NCBI GenBank assembly: GCA_025655555.1
Contig: JAHXIQ010000004.1
Location: forward strand, 248,001-312,000
Direction of reading: 5' to 3'
DNA from: Candidatus Thiodiazotropha sp. (ex Myrtea sp. 'scaly one' KF741663)
GTDB lineage: Bacteria > Pseudomonadota > Gammaproteobacteria > Chromatiales > Chromatiaceae
Length of the DNA: 64,000 bases
The translations under genes were made by a program, and so were the position numbers. The notes under the pieces were generated by a model. It was given only the letters and a program-made list of their open reading frames with translations, ran no database searches and was not told the DNA's origin. This document shows positions 17,942 through 23,130 of the stretch, piece after piece; position 1 is the first letter of the stretch; each line of letters opens with the position of its first letter.

Positions 17942-17984
17942 AAGGGGCATAGCGACTGGTTTCGCTTGCCCCTTCTGTTTTTTT
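17942..17984 (+). terminator. Hairpin with T run between guaB and guaA
   Basis: AAGGGGCA (17942-17949) pairs with TGCCCCTT (17967-17974), and the inner AGCGA/TCGCT bases extend the stem. It is followed by CTGTTTTTTTG, the layout of an intrinsic terminator. Because guaA starts only 20 bases later, it would either end guaB transcripts or lower guaA expression relative to guaB. Confidence 0.65.
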
Positions 17985-18003
17985 GACGGGAAGTAACAAG
18001 TAC

Positions 18004-19581
18004 ATGTCTACCGATATCCATGCCCATCGAATCCTGATTCTCGATTTCGGCTCCCAGTATACGCAACTGATTGCGCGGCGGGTGCGTGAGGCGGGAGTCT
18101 ACTGTGAGATTTTTCCCTACGACAATGCCGATGAGGGCTTCGAGGGGGAGAAACCGGCCGGCATCATCCTTTCGGGTGGACCGGAGACGGTCACCGCCGA
18201 CGAAGCGCCAGCGGCGCCGGCCCAAGTGTTTGAGCTGGGTATCCCGGTTTTAGGTATCTGTTACGGCATGCAGACCATGGCAGCACAACTGGGTGGCTCG
18301 GTAACACCTTCGGATAAACACGAATACGGCTATGCCCAGGTCAGGGCTAGGGGGCACTCGAAGCTGTTGCGCGATATCGAGGATCACACCAGTCCGGAAG
18401 GCTATGGTCTGCTGGATGTCTGGATGAGTCATGGTGACCGGGTCGATACCTTGCCTCCTGGTTTTCAGGTGATGTGCGAGACAGAAAATGCGCCACTGGC
18501 GGGCATGGCGGATGAGAGCCGGAGCTATTACGGGCTGCAATTCCACCCGGAAGTGACCCACACGCGACAGGGCAAGCGCATTGTCGAGCGATTCCTGTTT
18601 GATATCTGTGGCTGTGAGGCACTGTGGACTGCCGGCCAGATCATCGATGACAGCATCCATCATGTCAGGGAACAGGTGGGTGAAGATAAAGTCGTACTGG
18701 GGCTTTCCGGTGGTGTCGACTCTTCAGTCGTGGCTGCCCTATTACATCGAGCAATCGGAGAGCAACTGACCTGTGTGTTTGTCGATAATGGTCTGTTGCG
18801 ATTGCACGAGGGCGATCAGGTGATGGCAACTTTTGCTGAACACATGGGCGTCAAGGTGGTTCGCGTCAATGCCGAGGATCGTTTTCTTAAGGCGCTTAAA
18901 GGGATTGCAGACCCAGAACAGAAGCGCAAGATTATCGGCAACCTCTTCATCGACATTTTTGAAGAAGAGGCCAGCAAGTTGGAAGGCGTCTCTTACCTTG
19001 CACAGGGGACTATCTATCCTGACGTCATCGAGTCGGCCGGCGCAAAGTCCGGCAAGGCACATGTGATCAAGTCGCATCACAACGTGGGCGGATTGCCGGA
19101 CTATATGAAACTTCGTCTCGTGGAACCATTGCGCGAACTGTTTAAAGATGAGGTACGCAAAATCGGTGTGGAGCTCGGCCTGCCCTACGAAATGGTCTAT
19201 CGGCATCCTTTTCCTGGTCCCGGTCTCGGTGTGCGTATACTTGGTGAGGTTAATAAAACCTATGCGGATCTGCTACGCCAAGCGGATGATATTTATATCG
19301 AAGAGCTTCGAAAGAACGATCTCTATGATGAGGTCAGTCAGGCTTTTGCTGTATTCCTGCCTGTCAAATCAGTTGGTGTAGTGGGTGATGCGCGTTGTTA
19401 TGAGTACGTGGTCTCGCTGAGAGCCGTCAAGACGGTCGATTTTATGACGGCCAAGTTTGCACACTTGCCATTTGAATTCCTTGAAGAGGTCTCGCGTAGA
19501 ATTATCAATGAGGTAACCGGCATCTCACGGGTAGCCTACGATATCTCAAGTAAGCCGCCAGCCACGATTGAGTGGGAGTAA
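18004..19581 (+). CDS. guaA: GMP synthase (glutamine-hydrolysing)
   Basis: A 525-residue enzyme that converts XMP to GMP using glutamine and ATP. The start at 18004 ([21 protein letters not shown]) is preceded by GGGAAG. The class I amidotransferase domain has Cys86 (GICYGMQ) and the His-x-Glu pair (FHPEVTHT). The ATP pyrophosphatase loop is LSGGVDSSV, and the C-terminal dimerisation domain ends with TIEWE. The 3' end of this gene is a well-known integration site for genomic islands, and here it is followed by island-like sequence whose far end repeats the guaA tail. Confidence 0.98.
19564..19581 (+). repeat. Left att-like repeat (guaA 3' end)
   Basis: ACGATTGAGTGGGAGTAA forms the last codons of guaA. 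Its final 12 bases, GAGTGGGAGTAA, are identical to the right copy at 23119-23130. Confidence 0.7.
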
Positions 19582-19650
19582 CCGGAATTTCTAATCCATT
19601 GAAATATGAGAATAAAAACAATCCAATTGATAATATAATCTGCATCATCA

Positions 19651-19670
19651 ATGGTATTTCTCATGGTATT
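19651..19670 (+). repeat. Sub-terminal direct repeat, left copy
   Basis: ATGGTATTTCTCATGGTATT matches 23039-23058 at 18 of 20 positions in the same orientation. Each copy lies tens of bases inside the att-like repeat of its end. The internally repeated ATGGTATT unit looks like an integrase or accessory-protein arm site; this role is inferred. Confidence 0.5.
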
Positions 19671-19697
19671 TATTGCGCGCTATAACGCAAAAACCAG

Positions 19698-19736
19698 TGA
19701 TACCATGACAGGTAGATTGATGCTGTCATGGTATCA
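19698..19736. repeat. Perfect 14-bp inverted repeat
   Basis: TGATACCATGACAG (19698-19711) and CTGTCATGGTATCA (19723-19736) are exact reverse complements around an 11-base loop. It lies 43 bases beyond the stop of the primase-helicase gene, with no T run on either side. It contains the CATGGTAT unit also seen in the sub-terminal repeats. It may be a terminator stem or a protein-binding site of the element. Confidence 0.6.
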
Positions 19737-19779
19737 GAGAGCTTGAACAGCCTGCGCTCTGGAGCAATCCGGAAACTAG

Positions 19780-22187
19780 TTATACCAGTACAGCTTCAAA
19801 TTGCTTTACCTTATCCGTGCTGGCTGGTTCACCCGAGAATAAGATAGTATAGCTCATTGCCTTGTAGCTTTTTTCGCGCTTATTGAACATGCGCTGGAGC
19901 ATGGGAAGACCGCAGTCAACGTAATCGTGAATCGTCACTTGCGTTTTACCGTCTGATTCCCGGTGAATCCTTCCCGCATATTGCGCCAGCGAGCCTTTCC
20001 AGGCGATGGGCATGGCAAGAAAAAGTGTATCCAGCCTGGGTAGGTCAAAACCCTCTCCCACATATTTTCCGGTGGCGACCACAACCTGAGCCGAATGCAA
20101 ATGCTCTTCAACTCGCTTGCGTTCAGCGGCTTTCATAGCGCCTTTTAATATGATGGAATCAATACCGTTTTCTTTGAGAAGGTTGTTAATCATCTCGGCA
20201 TGCTGGCGCCTTTCAGTGAGGACGATTGGGTGCCTGTTTTCATGAACACAATCAATCACATCTGACGTAATTTGCCGCGTTCGTGCTTCGTTTTCCATGA
20301 TCCATCGGAAGGCTCTGTAATTCTTGGACGCTCTTCGGGCTGGGAAATATACAGTGGTGGCGTATCGTAGAACTGATGGACTTGAACTTCTTGTTCGAAC
20401 CTTCCTTCACCTGAGCTTTTAACTTTGTGTCGAATGGGGCCGGCAGCCATAAAGATAATCTTCTGGTGGCCGTCCTGTCTTTCTGGAGTAGCAGTAAGGC
20501 CGAGCACATATTTCGCTCGAACTTCGTTCAATACCATCTCAAAGCGCGGTGCCGATACGTGGTGACATTCATCAACTATCACATGCCCATAGTCCTGAAC
20601 AATGGGAGAGATGGTATTGTCTTTCTTGTTAATCAGGCTTTGATACGTCGCTATATCAATTATACCAGTGGGCTTTTTCTTTCCCCCGCGGGTGACGCCG
20701 ATTTCCGCTTCCGGCAAAAACGAGCGCAGCCTTTCCTGCCATTGATCAAGCAGTTGGCGGCTATGTACCAGAATAAGCGTGTTTGCTTTGCGCTTGGCGA
20801 TCATTCCGATAGCTGTCACGGTTTTTCCAAATACTGTAGGTGCATGTAGTATTCCTGCATCGTGTTTGCTCATTTCTTTTACGGCGGTCTGCTGATTTTT
20901 CCTCAAAGTTAATAATGGCTTGATGCCTGAAAGTTTAGTGCCCAACTCACGCATATCATCGATTTGAACGTCTATATTGTTCTCTTTCAATAACGTGAGA
21001 GCATCGTCCAAACACCCACGAGGCAATGCCAAGTAGCCACGTTCAATGCGTGCGCAAGAAATGAATCGCGGAATACCGTGGGTCGAAAAGCGAAGCGCCT
21101 GTGTTTTAAAGAAAACCGGATTCGAAAAGCTGGCTAGACGCCTTAATCTTGCTAAAAGGGCACTTGGCAGCGCCTTTACCTCAAAGTAGATGTGGTTGGC
21201 CAGCGTTATGCTTACCTGCTGAGGTGGGTTTTCCAGAACCAGGGGCCTGGGTTTGGCTGTTATCTCCCAGGGTGGCCGGGTATCAGTAACGTCCTGCTCT
21301 GAAATCAGGTTTCCGTTGGGAGAAATCTGCGAAAGAAGCTTATTTAGCTCAAGCCTGGAAAGTCTCTTTATCTGTGCGAGGTACTGCCATTGATCTTCAA
21401 TGACATTCAATTCTTTATCGACAAATGAGCTATTGCCTGCTTGTCTGGCTTCGCGCTGTAGTGGTAATGCAATCAAGTTGCCGAATCCCCCCTCAGGCAG
21501 AATGTCCTGATTGGGGAACAATCTGTCATAGGAGTCGAAAGACAGGTTTGGATAAACCTCCATCGCTTTATCAAGGAGACTAAATCCCAGCAAGCGTGCT
21601 TCATTGGCGGGCACCTTGTCATCGAAAAATATCCATAAGTGCGCGCCATTCCCGGAGCGTGAAATCTCGACTGCGTGAGGCACGTCATATTCGGTACAAG
21701 CTCTGGACATCGCTTTTACTTCATCTTGCCAGTTCCCTTTGTCGAAGTCGGCGGCCAGCAAGTGGCAGGTGCTATCTTGGAGCAGGGGATACAGGCCAAC
21801 AACCTGCTGTCCTGCCAAGTGGCGATAGATGACCTGATCGTTTAACTCGCTAAACTGGCGGTGAGTGCAGTCAAGGCATTTGATTCTCGGCTTGTTGCAG
21901 ACACCCTGAACCCACTCGTTGTCACAGGCTACGGAATAGCCACTTCGGCCTCGCTGGTTCTGCCAACGATTGGCAAAAATATCTGTGCGGCCACGAAACA
22001 GGTTTCTGAAAATTGCTATCTTTTGTTCTGGAGAAAAGGAATCTGAAATGGGAGGTACTGGCTTCGATTTTTGCAGCTCTACTCTGAGCGCGATGAGCTG
22101 CTGCTTTTCCTGTTCAAGATCTGCCAGCCTCGAATCGATAGCGGAAATATCAAGAAATTTATCTCCATTGCGATATTGATCAGGCAT
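19780..22187 (-). pseudogene. TOTE-type primase-helicase, frameshifted
   Basis: Two overlapping frames (22187 to 20256 and 20298 to 19780) together make one protein of about 800 residues. The first part has a coiled-coil start, a Cys cluster (GVCNKPRIKCLDC), and an archaeo-eukaryotic primase-like core with D147-F-D149, SGNGAHLW (His183), a later PNQD and FGNLIALP. A superfamily 2 helicase follows, with Walker A APTVFGKT (about 445), VDECHH (about 538) and GLTATPER. The helicase C-lobe lies in the other frame and contains VVATGKYVGEGFD and QYAGRIHR. Continuity is restored (ITE then AFRWIMENEAR) if one base is added near 20311-20315. This primase plus XPB-like helicase layout is the one described for TOTE conflict systems. 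The start overlaps higA by eight bases. Confidence 0.75.
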
Positions 22188-22548
22188 GAGCTTGAGGTGG
22201 TTTGATCAGCGACTCAGCCGGAATACCCAAGCCTTCGTGGAGCTTCCAGATCATCTTCAAAGTCAGCGAACGCTTGTGATTAAGGATCTCGTAAACGCGA
22301 TTACTTTTACCGATCATCGGCTCCAGGTCTTTTACGGTTAAGCCCTTGCGTTCCATTTCGAACTTGATCGCCTCAACAGGATCAGGCAAATCCATCGGGA
22401 AATGCTTGGCTTCATAAGCCTCAATAAGCGTGACCATAACATCCAGCTTTTCGCCTTCCGGGGTGTCTGGCCCAGCCATCATCAGGCTTTCAATTTCTTT
22501 TAATGCCGCGCGGTAGTCGGCATCAGTTTTAATCGGTTTGATGTCCAT
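22180..22548 (-). CDS. higA: HigA-type antitoxin
   Basis: A 122-residue DNA-binding antitoxin. A short N-terminal helical region is followed by a helix-turn-helix (about residues 68-112) with KGLTVKDLEPMIGKSNRVYE, the pattern of HigA proteins of the COG5499 type. It lies 17 bases downstream of the toxin gene in the toxin-first order typical of hig loci. It should neutralise HigB and repress the operon, probably at the palindrome upstream of higB. Its last eight bases overlap the start of the primase-helicase gene, which ties that gene into the same transcript and probably couples translation. Confidence 0.88.
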   Translation of the reverse strand: MDIKPIKTDADYRAALKEIESLMMAGPDTPEGEKLDVMVTLIEAYEAKHFPMDLPDPVEAIKFEMERKGLTVKDLEPMIGKSNRVYEILNHKRSLTLKMIWKLHEGLGIPAESLIKPPQAHA

Positions 22549-22565
22549 GGTTAATCCTCCGGCAG

Positions 22566-22868
22566 TTAAATGGTTTGCACATCAATCTTGTCGTACTGCA
22601 TATGGGTGCCAATAAAGCGGATGTAGACAACCCGGTAGGTGTAGTTGATCCACACGACGAGTCGATATTTGTTCCCCGCGATATTGAACACCACTCGGCC
22701 ATCTTTAAGGATGCTGGCATTCCCGAAGTCCTGCTTTACCTCGGCAGGTGAACTCCAGTCGGCACGCAAGGCATGACGATGCCAGGCCAAAGTTGGCTCC
22801 TTTGCATCCTGGTACTCCGGGCTCTCTTCCCAGAAGGCTTTCAGTGTCGACAGTGCGATGATTCTCAT
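22566..22868 (-). CDS. higB: HigB-type mRNA interferase toxin
   Basis: A 100-residue RelE/ParE-fold toxin of the HigB family (PF09907 type). Recognisable stretches are LKAFWEESPEYQDAKEPTLA, SILKDGRVVFNIAGNKYRLV and VYIRFIGTHMQYDKID; the His in THMQYDKID is the conserved C-terminal element. Such toxins cleave mRNA in association with the ribosome. It is the first gene of the higB-higA-primase/helicase unit. A TATATC box and a palindrome lie directly upstream of the ATG, leaving almost no 5' leader. Confidence 0.88.
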   Translation of the reverse strand: MRIIALSTLKAFWEESPEYQDAKEPTLAWHRHALRADWSSPAEVKQDFGNASILKDGRVVFNIAGNKYRLVVWINYTYRVVYIRFIGTHMQYDKIDVQTI

Positions 22869-22882
22869 GTATTCGATATACT

Positions 22883-22899
22883 AGTCCCAAAATGGGACT
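22883..22899. promoter_or_regulatory. Probable HigA operator at the higBA promoter
   Basis: AGTCCC (22883-22888) and GGGACT (22894-22899) form an inverted repeat with a 5-base spacer, beside a TATATC -10-like box on the minus strand. It lies 15 bases upstream of higB, where an autorepressing antitoxin would bind. Binding by HigA is inferred. Confidence 0.55.
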
Positions 22900-23038
22900 T
22901 CAGCAACAACTTTTTGGTCATACGCAGATTTGGCTAACATCATCAACCTGTATATCCTCTTGAAAAAGTGTTTGAATGAGGCATTTTGTGCTTACGGATT
23001 TGTGGAAAAAATGAAACTTTTTGAAGAAATTTCTGAGC

Positions 23039-23058
23039 ATGGTATTTTTCATGGCATT
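23039..23058 (+). repeat. Sub-terminal direct repeat, right copy
   Basis: ATGGTATTTTTCATGGCATT matches 19651-19670 at 18 of 20 positions. It lies 55 bases inside the right att-like repeat. The rest of 22900-23112 holds no recognisable gene. Confidence 0.5.
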
Positions 23059-23112
23059 ACCAATTAGCGGAAAAATTAGTCATTGAATATAAAAGACAAA
23101 AAAGGCTTATTT

Positions 23113-23130
23113 ACAATCGAGTGGGAGTAA
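23113..23130 (+). repeat. Right att-like repeat (copy of guaA tail)
   Basis: ACAATCGAGTGGGAGTAA repeats the end of guaA with two silent differences. In frame it reads T-I-E-W-E-stop. Synonymous differences suggest that one copy came with the element from another host's guaA rather than by simple duplication. Confidence 0.7.

Follow-up and report, generated by a model that had tools for sequence, protein, structure and literature searches.

A probable integrase-less cassette at the 3' end of guaA in a Candidatus Thiodiazotropha genome and its array-forming relatives

The guaA gene is a known integration site, and the present work concerns a segment of about 3.5 kb that lies between guaA and tadA in a genome of Candidatus Thiodiazotropha sp. 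(assembly GCA_025655555.1, contig JAHXIQ010000004.1). The window, i.e., the whole stretch of DNA that was analysed, comprises 64,000 nucleotides (positions 248,001 to 312,000 of the contig), and the coordinates below are counted from its first base. Among the closest described systems, the integrase of the GIsul2 island acts at the core GAGTGGGA, and excises and integrates both the island and CR2-sul2, an integrase-less unit bounded by such cores, as described in PMC9376610. Cis-mobilizable elements (CIMEs) are described in PMC5704250 as arising by decay and accreting in tandem. Judged by its sequence, the window segment is one member of an integrase-less, array-forming family and not a one-off island that lost its integrase. 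Most probably, it is an integrated cassette without an integrase of its own, a satellite of guaA tyrosine integrases of the GIsul2 kind.

The guaA segment and its empty sites

A preliminary description of the window had noted that the tail of guaA recurs 3.5 kb away in the same orientation, with only silent differences. This was confirmed: the copy ACAATCGAGTGGGAGTAA at 23113-23130 is identical to the original ACGATTGAGTGGGAGTAA at 19564-19581 in 16 of 18 bases, and both mismatches fall at third positions (ACG/ACA and ATT/ATC), both copies being translated as T-I-E-W-E-stop. The probability of an ungapped match of at least 16 of 18 bases is about 2e-8 per start, or about 7e-5 over 3.5 kb, at uniform base composition. 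A second direct repeat, ATGGTATTTYTCATGGYATT, is located internally to both segment ends (19651-19670 and 23039-23058, 18 of 20 bases identical). Across the 3.98-Mb genome, three exact copies of the core GAGTGGGAGTAA are present, two of them at this locus. The GC content of the segment (ca. 0.44-0.52), though below that of guaA (0.51-0.57), resembles that of the tadA side (0.47-0.52), and is therefore of little informative value on its own. The same description had the DNA between the repeats coding on the opposite strand, carrying accessory genes and lacking an integrase. All predicted genes are indeed on the minus strand; they comprise higBA and a frameshifted TOTE primase-helicase, and profile scans of the four open reading frames (ORFs) of the segment revealed no integrase.

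An element that integrates in guaA and restores its end had been proposed, with an empty site predicted in close relatives. Both the empty sites and the relatives with guaA integrases (see below) support this proposal. In genomes G018 and G014 (G, C and L numbers are our handles for genomes, contigs and loci), whose GuaA proteins are the most similar to that of the window (99%), guaA runs directly into tadA, which starts ca. 40 bp away. The flanks are 92.7% (1200 bp) and 97.2% (600 bp) identical to the window in G018, where the junction is exactly at the core and the 18 core bases are identical to those at the left attachment site (attL) of the window, and 95.5% and 90.5% identical in G014. 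Out of 21 genomes of the genus with a readable guaA end, three are empty (G001, G014 and G018), nine carry the left end that we call type A, which is that of the window, eight carry a type B left end, rich in GGCA repeats, and one carries another sequence; thus, the first bases after guaA in the 18 occupied sites fall into at least three kinds. A set of relatives that all keep the segment with the same genes and no empty site, the pattern that would contradict integration, was not found among these 21 genomes. In fragmented genomes, a junction was taken as occupied when tadA was absent from the available stretch after guaA (down to 0.6 kb, in G012). Where both genes are on one contig, the distance between them reaches ca. 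112 kb (G016). No guaA match was obtained in G017.

Two further observations concern guaA itself. The G001 assembly contains an empty guaA-tadA junction (contig C44) together with a contig (C83) that starts with a guaA tail beside an integrase; these two contexts possibly represent a mixed population or an excised form. Extra partial GuaA copies of up to 95 aa, 88% identical, were found at L049:12514-12789, L052:3662-3910, G008:C290:11313-11513 and in G012:C65, in some cases on the guaA contig, downstream of the gene, and in others on different contigs. By this reading of the sequences, some elements carry a long duplication of the guaA 3' end that goes beyond the 18-base core.

Signs of horizontal movement come from hosts that do not match their cassettes. 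The higBA-TOTE cassette of the window is 93.2% identical (3310/3553) to one inside an array in G020, while the host genes of the two genomes are 78.3% (guaA, 691/882) and 72.7% (tadA, 317/436) identical. A Lamellibrachia endosymbiont assembly has a third copy (L131), again in an array, with 88.5% identity; the guaA gene from that assembly is 77.2% identical.

A family of cassettes with common ends

The first ca. 170 bp after the guaA core and the last ca. 100 bp are conserved across cassettes of different content. Hidden Markov models (HMMs) of the left and right ends were built from 13 and 11 sequences, respectively, the window's own ends among them. A scan of genome contigs with an exact 28-base motif from the left end returned 52 stretches in 41 assemblies (counted by record prefix). 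By title, these are mostly Gammaproteobacteria (Thiodiazotropha, Sedimenticola, Solemya and Lamellibrachia symbionts, Haliea, Porticoccaceae, Lysobacteraceae and Methylothermaceae); one is a Desulfuromonadales metagenome-assembled genome (MAG), which may be misbinned. Since the motif belongs to the type A left end, the 52-locus set is biased to type A.

At 60 bits or more, 71 type A left ends were recognized (73 at E 1e-3) after removal of eight duplicate loci; the guaA-anchored set supplied 18 of them and the motif-found loci 53. A GuaA tail, of the gene or of a partial copy, precedes 35 of them, and the right end of another cassette precedes 33; the remaining three were classed as "other" by rule, of which two could be read as GuaA tails and the third as a degraded copy of one. 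In all, 70 of 71 left ends follow a readable GuaA tail or another cassette's right end, and the cassettes therefore form tandem arrays. Right ends at 35 bits or more also numbered 71 (79 at E 1e-3), and were followed by a type A left end in 34 cases, by a type B left end in 22, and by neither in 15. Neighbouring cassettes share one core; many array junctions are exactly at the core, while at some the core has drifted beyond the search pattern. The arrays seen consist of a few cassettes each, and their lengths are lower bounds because most motif-bearing assemblies are labelled as MAGs.

Short arm repeats recur at fixed distances from the core. Within one base of the expected position, exact repeats were present at +87 in 57, at +99 in 51, at +137 (inverted, ATACCAT) in 45 and at +164 (ATGGTAT) in 56 of the 71 left ends, the counts at +137 and +164 lying outside the search motif and those at +87 and +99 being raised by overlap with it, which lessens their weight for our interpretation. 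In the 18 left ends found without the motif, the four repeats were exact in 14, 8, 12 and 13 cases; at 2000 random positions of another stretch, used as a control, they were found in 0, 0, 0 and 1. Four ends (G030R, L078:294-378; L119; L137; and G009L) have the left-end arm repeats without the usual core-side part, matching HMM positions 88-172 only, and are perhaps a third type of left end or decayed ends.

The exact motif was present in three of 369 genomes from the class, the window's own included, and the family is thus not common everywhere; within the genus, with up to two mismatches, it was present in 8 of 22 genomes. These figures are lower bounds because type A ends that have diverged, that of G009 for example, escape the motif. 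A reversed-pattern control gave no match in the genome motif searches.

Left and right ends bounded 57 intervals, among which intervals as long as 9-23 kb exist. We kept 47 (31 type A and 16 type B; 0.8-5.5 kb, median 2.3 kb), leaving out nine of more than 5.6 kb and one of 228 bp (L127), probably an artefact of the right-end model. Genes for ParDE, VapC/PIN, HigBA, RelE, HipA, AbiE, Fic or a TOTE helicase were recognized in 32 of the 47 cassettes, or 38 if DUF4143 ATPases are also counted, and the eight type B cassettes of 791-821 bp that were examined could all be read as ParDE units. Cargo clusters were named through Pfam tallies, in which 25 of 61 cassette families were listed, and through scans of representatives; for ParE, ParD, Fic and DUF4143, the assignment came from agreement of cluster size with the Pfam tally and from reading, not from scans of each member, and the VapC label in G002 likewise rests on tally and reading. 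The remaining 60 kb of the window, a single core-chromosome stretch and not a matched set of islands, served as a control: 59 ORFs from it matched 104 Pfam families, and the 25 that were listed included none of the toxin-antitoxin kind; the same ORFs matched seven PADLOC families, with one member each.

Integrases were sought in the cassettes in three ways. A profile of 37 integrase sequences, which recovered 29 of 29 integrases tested, matched 0 of 141 cassette ORFs. A tblastn search of 47 stretches with eight integrases returned only the G001 and G030 contigs and a short, weak match in G048. In a PF00589 search of 19 genomes, none of the matches listed, from which weak ones may be missing, was in the guaA-tadA intervals of G002, G003, G004, G015 and G016.

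Two recurrent cargo proteins were seen in passing. A protein of ca. 108 aa is encoded beside the right end at L049:15471-15797, L127:2711-3034, L142:2031-2354, L148:5926-6252 and L152:4628-4954, in cassettes whose remaining cargo is unrecognized; clustering by blastp gave seven members, two of them shorter or elsewhere, and the one member scanned had no Pfam match. A DUF6880 protein follows Fic in four of nine Fic cassettes (L053:3172-4545, L108:215-1591, L143:4382-5836 and L049:17482-18677, the last as two ORFs), which suggests a Fic-DUF6880 module.

The features of the window segment and its native neighbours are collected in Table 1, where the guaA coordinates are those of the ORF from its first listed start, the family match beginning at residue 17. 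The TOTE primase-helicase is split by a frameshift near 20.3 kb, and an unbroken frame of 802 aa is found in relatives at L068:3180-5588 and L131:1080-3488. In the L131 cassette, HigA and the helicase are present and no HigB was called. A complete PD-Lambda-2 system was considered as the window cargo and rejected, since the A partner is full length while only the N-terminal third of the B partner (1-123/402) is matched. Outside any guaA array, plasmid pGX5 of Acinetobacter towneri (L188) has the same gene order as the window: annotated higB and higA are followed by unannotated helicase DNA, 71.7% identical to the window's first helicase piece. Because this order is kept there, higB, higA and the TOTE-type helicase may form one functional unit.

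Table 1. Coordinates of the window segment, its ends and the genes in and around it
Feature	Position	Strand	Evidence
attL core, last 18 bases of guaA, contains GAGTGGGA	19564..19581	+	direct repeat
Conserved left end (type A): core and arm repeats	19564..19735	+	left-end HMM 1-172, E 8.1e-50
Two direct arm repeats ATGGTAT, core +87 and +99	19651..19669	+	
Inverted arm repeats TGATACCATGACAG / CTGTCATGGTATCA, 11-base loop, same motif as direct repeats	19698..19736	.	
Conserved right end: arm repeats, then core	23031..23130	+	right-end HMM 1-99, E 1.4e-27
Two right-arm repeats ATGGTAT / ATGGCAT, core -74 and -62	23039..23057	+	
Right attachment site (attR) core, displaced guaA-tail copy	23113..23130	+	direct repeat
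guaA, target gene	17983..19581	+	NF000848 glutamine-hydrolyzing GMP synthase, E 1.5e-246
TOTE primase-helicase, C-terminal helicase part, out of frame with upstream part	19780..20298	-	Helicase_C E 2.4e-9
TOTE archaeo-eukaryotic primase and DEAD/ResIII helicase, N-terminal part	20256..22187	-	AEP-TOTE E 8.7e-100; ResIII E 1.4e-27
HigA-like antitoxin (helix-turn-helix)	22180..22548	-	HTH_3 E 2.1e-4, under Pfam cut-off; PADLOC PD-Lambda-2_B E 1.8e-42, 1-123 of 402
HigB toxin	22566..22868	-	HigB_toxin E 6.3e-31; PD-Lambda-2_A E 6.4e-36
tadA, native right neighbour of guaA	23169..23669	+	NF008113 TadA E 1.2e-65

guaA integrases and the weighing of explanations

Related elements with a guaA-specific tyrosine integrase, which the preliminary description had also called for, were found beside the same guaA core. 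The integrase gene is directly adjacent to the core in G001 (L061:138-1565), as are its relatives on two contigs of G030 (93-94%) and in G070 (88%). In the G001, G030 (C84) and G070 contigs, ATGGTAT is present between core and gene at +147, +159 and +224, with an inverted copy at 196; contig G030:C30 is without the exact +159 repeat, and each integrase contig has a further repeat at +293. The order of the repeats is the same in cassettes and integrase contigs, with spacings of 12, 38 and 27 in the former versus 12, 37 and 28 in the latter. Thirty of 32 integrase matches were examined as loci; these four contigs combine a guaA core with a partial left-end match, while the 26 more distant loci (29-39% identity) have neither core nor left end in the stretch examined, four of them showing one stray repeat each.

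Plasmid records contain integrases, mostly annotated as site-specific integrases, that share 86.5% identity with that of G001 over 394 aa; these records probably carry GIsul2 itself. In one plasmid record (L185), the integrase gene is located beside an AlpA gene and a RepA-helicase gene, with an ATACCAT/ATGGTAT pair 28 bases apart upstream; in a Vibrio record, a guaA core is accompanied by the inverted pair at nearly the same distance. The annotation of a small circular record, Sphingomonas p5 (L187, NZ_CP155767.1, 3,975 bp), lists only guaA, AlpA and a guaA-type integrase (55% identical); the record looks like an excised or misassembled circle.

Precise insertion, an empty site, shared ends with varied cargo, arrays built on one core and the lack of a recognized integrase are all observed, as are the arm layout that matches integrase-bearing elements and the 93% identity of the window cassette to one from a host with only 78% identity in guaA. 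Because of the arm layout and the CR2-sul2 precedent, we infer that excision and integration occur in trans; the route between cells and the function of the cargo are likewise putative. Both cassette ends retain the recombination core, located in the guaA tail, along with the arm repeats next to it, and a short cargo lies between them. A guaA integrase arriving on an integrative and conjugative element (ICE), an integrative and mobilizable element (IME) or a plasmid would treat these ends as its own and cut the cassette out as a circle, which would then insert where guaA has no cassette or, if one is resident, at the core next to it. The recombined core would still encode the guaA tail, so that guaA would stay intact. 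Toxin-antitoxin or defence-like cargo would penalize loss of the cassette or protect the host, and would thereby favour retention.

Several points weigh against this reading. Excision and integration of the cassette are deduced from sequence comparison. The helper would usually be absent, as a close guaA integrase (at least 88%) is present in only three of 57 genomes searched, and the window's genome gave no close guaA integrase match at 1e-30. The first ca. 90 bp of the type A left end are unlike the left end of the known autonomous elements, and the true type A helper may therefore be a different, unsampled element. No relaxase is encoded among the window's four ORFs (oriT, the origin of transfer, was not sought), and the frameshift in the cargo helicase means that the window copy of the cassette may be decaying. 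Recognized toxin, antitoxin, TOTE or DUF4143 genes are lacking in nine of the 47 cassettes. Finally, there is no known vehicle, since viral contigs gave no match to the exact left-end motif, and searches of plasmids, phages and E. coli genomes with the left end of the window segment were likewise negative; carriage by phage was rejected on the viral-contig and phage results.

The main rival is that the cassettes are CIMEs produced by decay, each segment being an independent remnant of an autonomous guaA ICE or IME that lost its integrase and transfer genes and kept attL and attR. The described route of decay followed by tandem accretion (PMC5704250) fits such an origin, as do the decayed or composite look of the 9-23 kb intervals and the partial GuaA copies in G016 and G021. 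Repeated independent decay is not expected to yield one shared non-autonomous end family, whereas the type A left end is common to 71 ends with differing short cargo and its first ca. 90 bp are its own, unlike those of integrase-bearing elements; a shared end family could, in turn, result if the decayed element was an autonomous one of type A that has not been sampled. The cargo is short, with a recognized toxin-antitoxin or TOTE gene in 32 of 47 cassettes and no integrase match in any of the 141 ORFs. Taken together, a left end that is shared yet distinct and cargo of few kinds speak against decay, which we consider unlikely.

It is very improbable that homologous recombination of the guaA-tadA region spread the segment laterally, with no site-specific step. 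Conserved guaA could serve as a recombination flank and array ends could pair, but the DNA flanking the segment belongs to the window's own lineage, as the comparison with the empty G018 site shows, while the cassette is 93% identical to one within the G020 array; in addition, many array junctions are exactly at the core, though the core has drifted at some. A simple duplication of the guaA tail or a chance repeat around old native genes, conceivable from an 18-bp repeat alone, was rejected because of the empty sites in G018 and G014 and of conserved arm repeats and ends that extend far beyond 18 bp.

Comparison with known systems

Neither the guaA site and core nor the integrase family is new, and the principle that a unit may do without its own integrase is likewise known. 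Like GIsul2 and other guaA IMEs, the cassettes use the 3' end of guaA and the same core, and the window segment is integrated there with GAGTGGGA. The IMEs encode an integrase, AlpA and other functions, none of which was recognized in the cassettes; the segment has no guaA-specific tyrosine integrase of its own.

As described in PMC9376610, CR2-sul2 is integrase-less, is flanked by guaA-type attachment (att) cores with GAGTGGGA and is moved by a guaA integrase. Judged by eye, the type B left ends of the cassettes are similar to its published terIS, GGGAGTGACGGGCACTGGC. The window segment is likewise an integrase-less unit bounded by guaA-type cores. The difference lies in content: CR2-sul2 carries the rcr2 transposase and sul2, not toxin-antitoxin genes (PMC9376610), while the four window ORFs are higB, higA and two TOTE primase-helicase pieces, with neither rcr2 nor sul2. 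The cassettes also differ from CR2-sul2 in having conserved arm-repeat ends, in forming arrays of different cargos, and in occurring in environmental and symbiotic bacteria.

With CIMEs, as these are described in PMC5704250, the cassettes share retained attL and attR, tandem accretion and the lack of an integrase or recognized transfer genes; the window segment keeps both sites, and its four ORFs include neither an integrase nor a transfer gene (no search for oriT was made). By definition, CIMEs result from decay, whereas the cassettes are a family defined by sequence, with ends of their own.

No description of such cassettes was found in the open-licence PubMed Central literature among the matches listed; what appears not to have been described there is a family with its own arm-repeat ends, tandem arrays, and toxin-antitoxin or defence cargo. 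This natural family appears to live as CR2-sul2 does, its cargo being mostly toxin-antitoxin or defence-like. It suggests a testable way for such genes, which lack a recombinase of their own, to enter genomes, and supplies a defined search motif and short natural att sites for the guaA integrase family.

Gene cassettes of integrons are small, rich in toxin-antitoxin genes, gathered in arrays at one site and moved by an integrase acting in trans. The likeness to the guaA cassettes would be functional: the attachment sites and the integrase differ, and the arrays seen here are of a few units. We tentatively raise the possibility that guaA arrays are integron-like, i.e., that widespread, interchangeable toxin-antitoxin and defence cassettes with standard ends might be gathered in tandem by integrases that passing conjugative elements provide in trans, the array of a given host being a changing library of anti-phage and stability functions.

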